Shown: positions 328 through 22,570 of the stretch, in pieces | How positions within the stretch are numbered: the stretch's first letter is position 1 | Layout of the letters: the number at the start of each line of letters is the position of its first letter | Translations under genes and position numbers: made by a program | Notes under the pieces: generated by a model | Seen by the model: only the letters and a program-made list of their open reading frames with translations | Database searches by the model: none | What the model was told of the DNA's origin: nothing | Origin: a virus | IMG/VR virus record: IMGVR_UViG_3300030117_004319 | Coordinates: 1-22,695 of that record | DNA: 22,695 nt | Reading direction: 5' to 3' (one strand)

Positions 328-519
328 ATGGCTACCAAAAAGACCAAGAAAAAATCTACCGTTAACAAAGCTGGTAATTATACTAAACCTACGATGAGAA
401 AGAATTTGTTTAATAAAATTAAAGCAGGTTCCAAAGGAGGTAAGCCTGGACAATGGAGCGCACGTAAGGCTCAGATGTTGGCTAAACAGTATAAAGCTAA
501 AGGTGGTGGATACAAGTAA
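328..519 (+). CDS. Small very basic phage protein, GQWSARKAQ type
   Basis: This 63-aa protein is about one third Lys/Arg. A Lys-rich N-terminus is followed by a conserved-looking block 'KGGKPGQWSARKAQMLAKQY' and a Gly-rich end (GGGYK). I recognise this as a recurrent type of small protein in marine phages; its function is not established as far as I know. The charge suggests nucleic-acid binding, possibly with packaged DNA, but that is inference. Its stop codon overlaps the next start (TAATG at 517-521), so it is translationally coupled to another basic protein. Its position at the end of the rightward unit fits a late gene. Confidence 0.75.
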   Translation: MATKKTKKKSTVNKAGNYTKPTMRKNLFNKIKAGSKGGKPGQWSARKAQMLAKQYKAKGGGYK

Positions 520-761
520 TGGCACTTAAAAAATCTCAAAAGTCTTTAAAGAAATGGACTAAACAGAAGTGGAGAACTCCTAGTGGTAAAAAGTCTTCAG
601 AAACTGGAGAAGTCTATGCACCTTCTAAAACTATTAAGAAGTTAAAGTCTACTGCGTCAGGGCGTAAAAAACTTGCAGCAGCTAACAAAAAGAAACGTGA
701 AGCAACTGCAAAAGGGAAACAACATGCAAAGCATGGCTTGCATAAGGGGAAGAAACGATGA
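519..761 (+). CDS. Small very basic phage protein, KWTKQKWRT type
   Basis: This 80-aa protein is extremely rich in Lys/Arg. It has an N-terminal 'LKKWTKQKWRTPSGKKS' motif, a middle 'GEVYAPSKTIKKLK', and a His/Lys-rich tail. The KW...KW motif resembles small uncharacterised proteins found in phages and large DNA viruses (DUF5872-like in my recollection, not verified). It probably binds nucleic acid, which is inferred from composition only. The gene overlaps the upstream gene by 1 nt and the downstream gene by 4 nt (ATGA, 758-761), which gives a tight three-gene cassette of basic proteins. Confidence 0.75.
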   Translation: MALKKSQKSLKKWTKQKWRTPSGKKSSETGEVYAPSKTIKKLKSTASGRKKLAAANKKKREATAKGKQHAKHGLHKGKKR

Positions 762-1072
762 GAGAAGATTATAAAAAAGGAGGGAAGTCTAAGAGAGATC
801 CTAGATTAAAGAGAGCAGGAGTATCTGGTTTTAATAAACCTAAACGTACTCCTAGTCACCCAAAGAAATCTCACATTGTTGTTGCCAAAGAAGGTGACAA
901 GATTAAAACAATTCGTTTTGGACAGAAAGGAGCTAAGACAGCAGGGAAACCTAAAGCTGGAGAGTCTGCTCGTATGAAAGCCAAGCGTAAAAGTTTTAAA
1001 GCAAGACATGCTAGGAATATTAAACGAGGTAAAATGAGTGCAGCTTATTGGGCTGATAAGGTCAAGTGGTAA
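758..1072 (+). CDS. Basic phage protein, KRAGVSGFNKPKRTP type
   Basis: This 104-aa basic protein carries blocks I recognise as conserved among marine phage hypothetical proteins. They are 'LKRAGVSGFNKPKRTPSHP', a central 'SHIVVAKEGDKIKTIRFGQ' and a C-terminal 'ARHARNIKRGKMSAAYWADK' followed by VKW. The central part looks like a short beta-rich module between basic arms. No biochemical role is established to my knowledge; DNA or RNA binding is plausible from charge. It starts inside the stop region of the preceding gene (ATGA) and ends about 27 nt before the riboswitch aptamer. Confidence 0.8.
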   Translation: MREDYKKGGKSKRDPRLKRAGVSGFNKPKRTPSHPKKSHIVVAKEGDKIKTIRFGQKGAKTAGKPKAGESARMKAKRKSFKARHARNIKRGKMSAAYWADKVKW

Positions 1073-1098
1073 CAATTATTATTTAATAAATTAAAACA

Positions 1099-1146
1099 CG
1101 TTCATCCTTTACAGGACGGAAGTAGGCACATAATGCTGAAGGAACG
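1099..1146 (+). promoter_or_regulatory. Glutamine riboswitch aptamer (glnA / Downstream-peptide class)
   Basis: The RNA folds as a compact three-way junction. P1 is CGTTC (1099-1103) with GAACG (1142-1146). P2 is TCCT (1105-1108) with AGGA (1113-1116). P3 is GGCA (1125-1128) with TGCT (1134-1137). The junction strands GGACGGAAGTAGG and CTGAAGGAACGC match the conserved core of glutamine-binding riboswitches, including AGTA (1121-1124) facing GAA (1138-1140), as in the loop-E motif. These RNAs are known from cyanobacteria and marine metagenomes or phages, where the Downstream-peptide type precedes very short genes. Here a 48-aa gene follows. The three-stem form looks more glnA-like. The identification is from remembered consensus and was not run against a model. 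Confidence 0.85.
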
Positions 1147-1147
1147 C

Positions 1148-1177
1148 ATTGATGAAGTTTATCAATCTAACTGGAGG
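1148..1177 (+). promoter_or_regulatory. Possible riboswitch expression platform: hairpin plus strong SD
   Basis: Right after the aptamer there is a perfect 6-bp hairpin, ATTGAT (1148-1153) with ATCAAT (1161-1166). It is followed by a strong Shine-Dalgarno GGAGG (1173-1177) six bases before ATG 1184. No U-tract follows, so control of translation is more likely than termination. This is inference from layout only. Confidence 0.45.
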
Positions 1178-1183
1178 TATAAT

Positions 1184-1330
1184 ATGACTGAGTACTATAG
1201 AGGTTTTAAAATAAAAAATGAATCTGAGAAAGTTACTAAAATGAAATCTGGAATTTATCGTGGAGTAAAATGGTATGAAGCAAGCTCAACAAATAATACT
1301 GACCAAGAAACAGTTGAAGGAGTTAATTAA
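1184..1330 (+). CDS. Riboswitch-controlled short peptide with YRG motifs (DUF4278-like)
   Basis: This is a 48-aa product. The start at 1184 is chosen because it sits six bases after GGAGG. The upstream in-frame ATG at 1133 lies inside the riboswitch P3 loop and is rejected. The peptide contains two 'YRG' elements, 'YYRGFK' near the N-terminus and 'GIYRGVKWYEAS' in the middle. The latter resembles the short DUF4278-type 'TYRGVKY' proteins of cyanobacteria and cyanophages (tentative). Its placement behind a glutamine aptamer makes it a 'downstream peptide', presumably made in response to host nitrogen status. What it does is unknown; a role in adjusting host nitrogen metabolism is an attractive but untested idea. 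Confidence 0.75.
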   Translation: MTEYYRGFKIKNESEKVTKMKSGIYRGVKWYEASSTNNTDQETVEGVN

Positions 1331-20271: not shown

Positions 20272-20730
20272 GTGGCTCATATTTCAAATTATTTACCTAA
20301 AGGTATAAGACCACAAAGTAAAGAACGTGAACTAACTGAAAAGCAACAAAAGTTTCTGGATAACCTAATTGAAACAGGAGGTGATCCTAAACTAGCAGCG
20401 AAGCTTGCAGGATATGCTGAAGGCAGTCATCATCAAGTCATAAAAGCATTGCAACAAGAAGTGATTGAGCTGGCCTCTCGTATCCTAGCGGAGTCTGCAC
20501 CAAAAGCTGCTATGAAGTTAGTGCAGGTAATGAACTCTGATGATGCTATACCACAGGTAAATACCAAGCTACAAGCCGCTCAAACCATCCTTGATAGGGT
20601 AGGTGTCTCTAAAACGGATAGGTTGGATGTAAATCACAACCTAGACGATAGTACAGGCAGCTTATTTATATTACCAGCTAAGGGAGATGTGATTGAAGGC
20701 ACAATTGCTAATAGAATTTCCCAAGACTAA
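20272..20730 (+). CDS. Putative small terminase subunit
   Basis: This 152-aa protein starts at GTG 20272, preceded by AAGGA eight bases away. The N-terminal part has 'LTEKQQKFLDNLIETGGDPK' followed by 'LAAKLAGYAEGSHHQVIKAL', a helix-turn-helix pattern common in small terminase proteins that recognise packaging sites. A helical middle ('KAAMKLVQVMNSDDAIPQVN') fits the oligomerisation core. The adjacent, overlapping large terminase gene strongly supports the call. It would start DNA packaging by binding phage DNA and handing it to the large subunit. Confidence 0.8.
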   Translation: MAHISNYLPKGIRPQSKERELTEKQQKFLDNLIETGGDPKLAAKLAGYAEGSHHQVIKALQQEVIELASRILAESAPKAAMKLVQVMNSDDAIPQVNTKLQAAQTILDRVGVSKTDRLDVNHNLDDSTGSLFILPAKGDVIEGTIANRISQD

Positions 20731-22570
20731 AGATAAGGTTAGGGGATCTATTCCCTATGGTTACAAGCTGGTAGATAATAAAGATAACGCTTTAGAGGTT
20801 ATCCCTGAACATATTGAACTATTAGCAAAGATGATTAATGGTTTGATAGATAATACAGTCTCTTCACTAAGAGAAGCGAAAGAGATTATAGAATCTGAGT
20901 TAGAAGGTGTAACTATATCGCACCAGACCATACAAAAGTATGTCAAGCAGGAAAAGGTAGCTAGAGGTTTAGAAGATCCTAACAAACCTAAGAGGCAGTA
21001 TAACTATCATAGCAAAGTTAAAGCTAAGATATCTGCTCAGAAGTCTTTAAAGGATAAAAAGAAAAAAGAAAAAGACTTAGAACGAAAGCTACAAACAGTT
21101 AAGAAAAGTATTCAACGTCAGAAGAATATTCAAAGTAAGTTAGATGAACCTTCTGATGAAAAGACTAAAGAAGGTAAAGTAGTTTCTTTAGATCAAATAG
21201 AAGAACATTTACCAGATCTAGTACAGGAAGAAGCGAAACAGTCTGTTATATTTTCCCCTAATGAAGGGCCGCAGACTGATTTCCTAGCCGCTCCAGAAAC
21301 AGATGTACTGTACGGAGGAGCAGCAGGAGGTGGTAAATCCTATGCGATGTTAGTAGATCCGCTAAGGTATTGCCACAGACCAGCGCATAGAGCCTTGATA
21401 CTAAGAAGATCTATGCCAGAGCTAAGAGAATTGATTGACAAGTCTAGGGAATTATATCCTAAAGCTTTTCCGGGTTCTAAGTTTAGAGAAGTAGAAAAGA
21501 TATGGAATTTCCCTAGCGGTGCAAAGGTTGAATTTGGATTCCTAGAAAGGGATGCAGATGTGTACCGTTATCAGGGGCAAGCCTATTCTTGGATTGGGTT
21601 TGACGAGATCACCCACCTACCAACAGAATTTGGGTGGAACTATTTAGCATCTCGACTCAGGACTACTGATCCAGATATTGTCCCTTACCTACGTTGTACA
21701 GCTAACCCCGGAGGGGTAGGCGCACATTGGGTTAAGAAACGATATGTTGATCCTAACGAGCCTAATGAATCGTTTACAGGGGAAGATGGACTAAGCCGCA
21801 AGTTTATTCCTGCTAGATTACAAGACAATCCGTTTTTATCAAAGGATGGTCGATACGAGCAGATGTTAAAGGCTTTACCTGATGTACAACGTAGGCAGTT
21901 ATTAGAAGGTAATTGGGAAATTACTGAAGGCGCAGCCTTTACGGAATTTGACGTAGGTGTTCATGTAATACCTCCTTTTCAGATTCCTATAGGTTGGGAA
22001 CGAGTTAAAGGCATTGACTATGGCTATGCATCTGAATCAGCTTGTGTATGGTCTGCTATAGATCCTTCTGACGGAACTCTTATTGTATATCGAGAGTTGT
22101 ATCAAAAGAATCTAACAGGATTAGATTTAGCACAGTTAATTACTGAAATGGAAATAGAAGATCCCTTTTCTGTTGGTGGAGTGCTTGATACAGCAGCTTG
22201 GAACAGAACAGGGACTACAGGCCCTACAGTAGGTGAAACGCTTGTAAGAGCAGGACATAAGCTACGAAGGGCAGATAAGAATAGGATTCAAGGAAAGATA
22301 CAGATCCATGAATACTTGAAAGTGCAACAAAGCGGAAGGCCACGAATACAAATATTTAATACTTGTCCTAACCTGATACGTGAACTTCAAAGTATTCCAT
22401 TGGATAGATCTAACCCTGAAGACGTAGACACTCACGCACAGGATCATGCTTATGATGCTTTGCGTTATTTAATTATGTCAAGACCTAAAGTTAATGATCC
22501 TTTAGCTCAAATGAGACATATGAGAATGGAACAAGCTTATACGCCAGTGGATGCAGAATTTGGCTATTGA
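20693..22570 (+). CDS. terL: Large terminase subunit with N-terminal HTH extension
   Basis: This 625-aa DNA-packaging motor starts at TTG 20693 with GGGAG six bases upstream, and overlaps the small subunit by 38 nt. The ATPase has Walker A 208-216 ('GGAAGGGKS'), Walker B 'WIGFDE' (D304, E305) and a coupling motif 'CTANPGG' (335-341). The RNase H-like nuclease has D442 ('GIDYGY'), D499 ('GVLDTAAW') and D584 or D588 ('DHAYDALRY'). Before the motor, residues about 17-90 ('RGSIPYGYKLV', 'SLREAKEIIE', 'TISHQTIQKYV') resemble the DNA-binding 'recombinase' domain of serine recombinases. A Lys-rich coiled-coil linker follows (about 105-160). A similar extension occurs in cyanophage terminases, as I recall. 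Confidence 0.93.
   Translation: MKAQLLIEFPKTKDKVRGSIPYGYKLVDNKDNALEVIPEHIELLAKMINGLIDNTVSSLREAKEIIESELEGVTISHQTIQKYVKQEKVARGLEDPNKPKRQYNYHSKVKAKISAQKSLKDKKKKEKDLERKLQTVKKSIQRQKNIQSKLDEPSDEKTKEGKVVSLDQIEEHLPDLVQEEAKQSVIFSPNEGPQTDFLAAPETDVLYGGAAGGGKSYAMLVDPLRYCHRPAHRALILRRSMPELRELIDKSRELYPKAFPGSKFREVEKIWNFPSGAKVEFGFLERDADVYRYQGQAYSWIGFDEITHLPTEFGWNYLASRLRTTDPDIVPYLRCTANPGGVGAHWVKKRYVDPNEPNESFTGEDGLSRKFIPARLQDNPFLSKDGRYEQMLKALPDVQRRQLLEGNWEITEGAAFTEFDVGVHVIPPFQIPIGWERVKGIDYGYASESACVWSAIDPSDGTLIVYRELYQKNLTGLDLAQLITEMEIEDPFSVGGVLDTAAWNRTGTTGPTVGETLVRAGHKLRRADKNRIQGKIQIHEYLKVQQSGRPRIQIFNTCPNLIRELQSIPLDRSNPEDVDTHAQDHAYDALRYLIMSRPKVNDPLAQMRHMRMEQAYTPVDAEFGY

Follow-up and report, generated by a model that had tools for sequence, protein, structure and literature searches.

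A type 1 glutamine riboswitch aptamer upstream of a YRG-repeat peptide in an HMO-2011-type podovirus, and its recurrence in viral contigs

By its covariance-model score and intact core, an RNA element in the late unit of a podovirus is a type 1 glutamine riboswitch aptamer, and it lies in the leader of a short gene for a YRG-repeat peptide. The sequence analysed, here called the window, is the whole stretch of 22,695 nucleotides of the IMG/VR virus record IMGVR_UViG_3300030117_004319 (positions 1 to 22,695). We consider it fairly probable, taking all parts together, that the window derives from a marine HMO-2011-type podovirus in which the riboswitch controls the translation of the peptide as an ON switch, that the module was acquired from a SAR86-type donor, and that the peptide serves as a modulator of nitrogen metabolism. 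The features of the leader and the peptide gene are the following:

1097..1150, + strand: type 1 glutamine riboswitch aptamer (cmscan, RF01739)
1099-1103/1142-1146, + strand: aptamer stem P1 (RF01739 alignment)
1105-1108/1113-1116, + strand: aptamer stem P2 (RF01739 alignment)
1125-1127/1135-1137, + strand: aptamer stem P3 (RF01739 alignment)
1129..1137, + strand: predicted switching strand formed by the loop and 3' arm of P3, CAUAAUGCU (folding)
1148..1166, + strand: AU-rich hairpin between the aptamer and the Shine-Dalgarno sequence (sequence, relatives, folding)
1173..1177, + strand: Shine-Dalgarno sequence GGAGG, 6 nt upstream of the ATG (sequence)
1184..1330, + strand: 48-amino-acid YRG-repeat peptide with two YRG units, DUF4278-like (ORF; Pfam PF14105, below the cut-off)

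A cmscan search of the whole 22,695-base window, with rows reported to E≤1, placed RF01739 (glutamine riboswitch aptamer, type 1) at positions 1097-1150 of the plus strand with a score of 57.9 bits (E 1.3e-10), for a model with a gathering score of 35 bits. The match spans model positions 1-53 of 53 and is the sole credible Rfam row in the window. The only other row, XIST_A, was below the threshold and was taken as a chance match. The original prediction of a glutamine-sensing aptamer with the stems P1-P3 is thus borne out, its start at position 1099 being located 2 nt inside the match. It had proposed Infernal searches with two Rfam models, of which the glnA model gave a significant, full-length match, and the type 2 model RF01704 (Downstream-peptide, glutamine-II) gave no match in the window at E≤1. 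That the aptamer class is already known was also correct; it corresponds to type 1 in Rfam. In the RF01739 alignment, the stems P1-P3 and the conserved core strands are intact, and the strands quoted in the prediction, GGACGGAAGTAGG and CTGAAGGAACGC, are present exactly in the window. An aptamer that has decayed or shifted its ligand specificity, so that only an RNA structure that shields the ribosome-binding site remains and glutamine control is lost, seems improbable. While a structure near the ribosome-binding site may persist for other reasons, 18 relatives with differing P2 and P3 loops all keep the same P1 and have nearly invariant core columns, and the RF01739 score is far above the gathering score. 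An aptamer that binds glutamine would therefore be the preferred reading.

The hairpin downstream of the aptamer, ATTGATGA-AGT-TTATCAAT, consists of eight base pairs, one of which is a G-U pair, and the distance from the aptamer to the start codon is 36 nt. The hairpin, the strong Shine-Dalgarno sequence and the 48-amino-acid ORF are all as previously described from the sequence. The ATTGA...TCAAT arms of the hairpin are conserved in the relatives, while the loop and the spacing differ, and the hairpin is formed in both of the predicted states of the leader. It is not an intrinsic terminator because it is not followed by a U-run, and a scan for intrinsic terminators was negative for the sense strand. 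A transcription-termination switch was ruled out on these grounds. A longer ORF of 65 amino acids, with an in-frame start at position 1133, was rejected since it has no Shine-Dalgarno sequence and its start falls inside P3.

The peptide contains two YRG units, as expected for the YRG-motif peptide originally noted. It matches Pfam PF14105 (DUF4278) with 21.6 bits (E 2.9e-4), which is under the curated cut-off of 25.3, and it is therefore referred to as DUF4278-like and assigned by name to the YRG-repeat family. In a Pfam scan of 22 YRG peptides, 20 from phages and two from bacteria, 21 matched DUF4278 at E≤0.1, with a best E-value of 1.5e-8, and only the YRG motif and the start methionine are invariant among the YRG peptides. 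As judged from these alignments, the window peptide is a member of the YRG-repeat (DUF4278) family. The Pfam search identified no other credible domain in the peptide, which consists of YRG units only and has no second domain, and a profile search against the PDB returned nothing credible. The AlphaFold model has a mean pLDDT of 65 and a pTM of 0.27, and its confident part is a short beta hairpin around GIYRGVKWYE.

In cyanobacteria, DUF4278 is commonly targeted by glutamine riboswitches (PMC6316151). Switches of both types, 1 and 2, regulate DUF4278 genes as well as IF17, and expression increases with glutamine (PMC6316151, PMC11288750). The statement in the original prediction that the role of such phage peptides is not known holds for their function, but the peptide is no orphan, since the YRG-repeat (DUF4278) family is under glutamine riboswitches in cyanobacteria and, according to the present data, in SAR86-type bacteria. 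The cyanobacterial DUF4278 genes (gifB/IF17, and the picocyanobacterial peptides with the type 2 aptamer RF01704) resemble the window in that a glutamine aptamer is located directly upstream of a YRG-repeat peptide (PMC6316151), whereas in the phage peptides the YRG units number 1-3 and are not joined to a second domain, and the similarity to the SAR86 peptides is higher. DUF4278 forms the N-terminal part of IF17, the gene of which is under a glutamine riboswitch (PMC6316151), as would fit a phage peptide that acts like a glutamine synthetase (GS) inactivating factor and directly inhibits the host enzyme. We consider such an activity quite unlikely, because the DUF4278 part of IF17 is dispensable for inhibition (PMC6316151) and a GS-binding part beyond the DUF4278 region, as in IF17, is absent from the 48-amino-acid peptide according to the Pfam search. 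The peptide would act at high glutamine levels in the infected cell, where it probably modulates nitrogen assimilation of the host as a small protein that binds other proteins.

The relationships of the phage are reflected by four further genes:

328..519, + strand: late-unit gene upstream of the riboswitch, phrog_17747, which marks the syntenic region (identity of 71% with HTVC115P)
519..761, + strand: upstream late-unit gene, phrog_14910 (phrog match; synteny)
758..1072, + strand: gene directly upstream of the riboswitch, phrog_7595 (phrog match)
20693..22570, + strand: terminase large subunit, TerL (63-67% to Pelagibacter phages HTVC103P/104P/115P)

The location late in a rightward unit was predicted correctly. 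The late-unit genes 328 and 519 and gene 758 (named by their first positions) are found upstream on the plus strand. The nearest relatives of TerL are those of HTVC115P, HTVC104P and HTVC103P at 63-67% identity, followed by roseophages, HMO-2011 and others, and the DNA polymerase shares about 48% identity with its homologs in HTVC103P/104P/115P. These three phages share TerL, the polymerase, the primase and the syntenic pair of genes 328 and 519 with the window, and HTVC115P also shares the RNR. TerL, the polymerase, the primase and the gene order are common to the window phage and the HMO-2011-type podoviruses. TerL, the polymerase and the synteny of genes 328 and 519 thus identify the phage as an HMO-2011-type podovirus and not a cyanophage. 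The window phage is accordingly taken to be a proteobacterial phage, the host being deduced from its relatives.

The original prediction had hinted at a cyanophage, which is contradicted by TerL, the polymerase and the gene order, all of the HMO-2011 type and kin to SAR11 phages. Cyanobacteria frequently contain glutamine riboswitches, which precede YRG peptides in these organisms too; 24 of the 25 fetched picocyanobacterial type 2 loci encode a YRG peptide of 33-67 amino acids. However, the aptamer of the fetched picocyanobacterial loci is type 2, and their peptides score lower against those of the phages. Together with the Pelagibacter/HMO-2011-type genes, this makes it extremely unlikely that the virus infects picocyanobacteria and obtained the module from them. 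The Pelagibacter phages HTVC103P/104P/115P differ from the podovirus in the window in that no RF01739 aptamer was found in them, and no YRG peptide in the 30 kb examined of each. With 37%, the G+C content of the window exceeds that of two of the three phages (29-32%, taken over their first 30 kb), and the host therefore need not be SAR11.

A search with the exact core pattern identified the aptamer in 75 IMG/VR contigs, and a small ORF is located just downstream of it in every viral contig where the downstream sequence is present, which argues that the aptamer in the window is not a chance match. The downstream ORFs were classified by hand. YRG peptides with 1-3 YRG units directly follow the aptamer in 31 of the 75 contigs, while a second family, GTSGY...NNW, of 64-65 amino acids and unrelated to YRG, is found behind the same aptamer in another 34, including L006-L008, L012-L015 and L042. 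The other 10 contigs encode a few small peptide groups. The late-unit genes of the window are shared by at least 18 contigs, all with YRG peptides, and the position of the cassette varies, being between genes 328 and 519 in L002, L005 and L010, and after gene 758 in the window, L003 and L016. In the GTSGY group, a late promoter similar to TATAAATA lies directly upstream of the aptamer in many contigs. Nucleotide and protein searches gave no match to the cassette in isolate phages. Weak homologs of the GTSGY peptide were observed in the Pelagibacter podophages HTVC019P and HTVC011P, with no aptamer match in the scanned stretch. Tandem glutamine aptamers upstream of one small ORF were seen in both phage contigs and bacterial genomes (L017, L047, L107, L139 and L187).

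A review describes glutamine riboswitches as restricted to cyanobacteria (PMC6316151). RF01739 was identified in 95 of 150 genomes from one order of marine alphaproteobacteria, with amtB downstream in many of the loci examined, and above the cut-off in 59 of 151 genomes from the SAR86 order, with glnA and other genes downstream. It was present in two of 197 genomes from the order of a Pelagibacteraceae MAG. In marine Alpha- and Gammaproteobacteria, type 1 riboswitches occur commonly, and frequently as tandem copies, upstream of amtB, glnA, gltB and gltD (for example L088, L098, L103, L133, L137, L161 and L182). Two SAR11-order genomes contain a chromosomal-looking riboswitch and GTSGY peptide beside housekeeping-type genes (L164, 7379-7588; L230, 1268-1477).

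DUF4278 was found in 19 of the 151 SAR86-order genomes and in none of the 150 genomes of the marine alphaproteobacterial order or the 197 of the Pelagibacteraceae MAG order. The SAR86-order DUF4278 genes stand alone next to housekeeping genes, and RF01739 was located upstream at five of the six loci scanned, with 42-44 bits, above the threshold. The match spans 137-138 nt in these leaders (L257, L258, L263, L264 and L267), compared to 53 positions in the model, which implies a large insertion in the aptamer. In a small comparison with five bacterial peptides, which is also limited by database coverage, the SAR86/Porticoccaceae score exceeded the best cyanobacterial score for nine of ten phage YRG peptides, with one tie, and the picocyanobacterial score for all ten. 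These data suggest a gammaproteobacterial source of the phage YRG module, most likely a SAR86-type marine gammaproteobacterium, in which chromosomal YRG peptides follow the same riboswitch.

According to folding predictions, the leader likely acts as an ON switch at the level of translation. In the absence of glutamine, the loop and 3' arm of P3 would reach across the small hairpin to pair with the AUG and the end of the Shine-Dalgarno region, and there would be no translation. When glutamine is bound, P1 and P3 would close, the ribosome-binding site would be free and the peptide would be made. In the predicted free-state fold, positions 1129-1137 are paired with 1176-1180 and 1183-1186 (GGUAU..UAUG) while the hairpin is kept, and its energy is -17.5 versus -13.7 kcal/mol with the aptamer forced. 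The unpaired probability of the AUG changes from 0.04 in the free fold to 0.84 with P1-P3 forced, a comparison biased towards ON as forcing an aptamer tends to free other bases. Shuffled platforms attained an AUG-freeing change in one of 60 cases, and P3-loop shuffles in 10 of 60. A comparable change is predicted for most HMO-type relatives, weakly for L010 and L025, while folding predicted no switch in L011 and L034.

In a swap test, the P3 strands of the HMO-type group paired better with their own ribosome-binding sites than with swapped ones (162 of 20000 permutations, which ignore relatedness), while the pairing in the window itself does not stand out (rank 12 of 15). The test gave no signal in the GTSGY phage group or the cellular leaders, and the switch model is therefore proposed for the HMO-type group only. 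By pair counting, 89.6% of the cells in the switching helix are paired, with sliding and shuffle controls that were not decisive, and a two-sided change is seen for one pair only, from A-U to G-C, in three sequences from one clade. Overall, the comparative support for the ON-switch model is moderate.

The opposite direction, in which glutamine lowers peptide synthesis so that the peptide is produced when nitrogen is scarce, is suggested by the marine proteobacterial aptamers, which precede amtB, glnA and gltB/gltD, where repression by glutamine would be expected, and by the window phage being a proteobacterial phage. However, the leaders of these genes are mostly longer, with approximately 70-160 nt from the aptamer to the start, whereas most cyanobacterial DUF4278/IF leaders, at approximately 33-53 nt, are near the 36 nt in the window, and the fold predicts that the AUG is hidden without the ligand. 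An OFF switch is thus judged unlikely, and the ON switch is preferred.

Riboswitches have been described as rare in phages (PMC9004378). Glutamine aptamers in marine phages have been reported from Melnitz, Mosig EXVC030M and cyanomyoviruses (PMC9004378, PMC9602691), which are T4-like myophages, while the window represents a podovirus with a YRG peptide. In Melnitz, the authors tie the switch to ssrA. In Mosig, it precedes an ORF of 51 amino acids (Mosig_00116) about 20 kb from ssrA, a distance that makes control of the tmRNA unlikely; it is located on the minus strand (L270, 42397-42450; record 92197-92250). Mosig also contains a manA RNA motif (RF01745, 64 bits; L271, 9364-9571). With type 1 glutamine riboswitches in general, the window element shares the full-length match, the P1-P3 architecture, the core and the position in a 5' leader, here that of a small ORF. 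It differs by lying inside a phage late unit and by its short platform, which is specific to the phages and contains an AU hairpin.

Thus, the aptamer class and its pairing with DUF4278 were known, while the phage lineage, the peptide assignment and the proteobacterial distribution are new. Among viruses, the same aptamer precedes small peptides of a few families in 75 contigs, and it is also present in numerous genomes of marine alpha- and gammaproteobacteria. A tentative extension is that a glutamine-induced small-peptide module of the host was captured more than once by phages of streamlined marine proteobacteria, that the peptides adjust the nitrogen assimilation of the host at a late stage of infection, and that they represent a phage-borne class of metabolite-gated regulators. 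The two unrelated families concerned would be YRG, which occurs in HMO-type podoviruses and other phages, and GTSGY...NNW, which occurs in two SAR11-order genomes and in phages whose late promoters are of the T4 type. As the peptide is kin to glutamine-controlled small proteins of marine bacteria, the virus has apparently taken over a nitrogen-response module from its host. With the peptide families, their cellular homologs and a nucleotide-level switch model listed, the role of riboswitch-controlled small peptides in infection and nitrogen control becomes testable.
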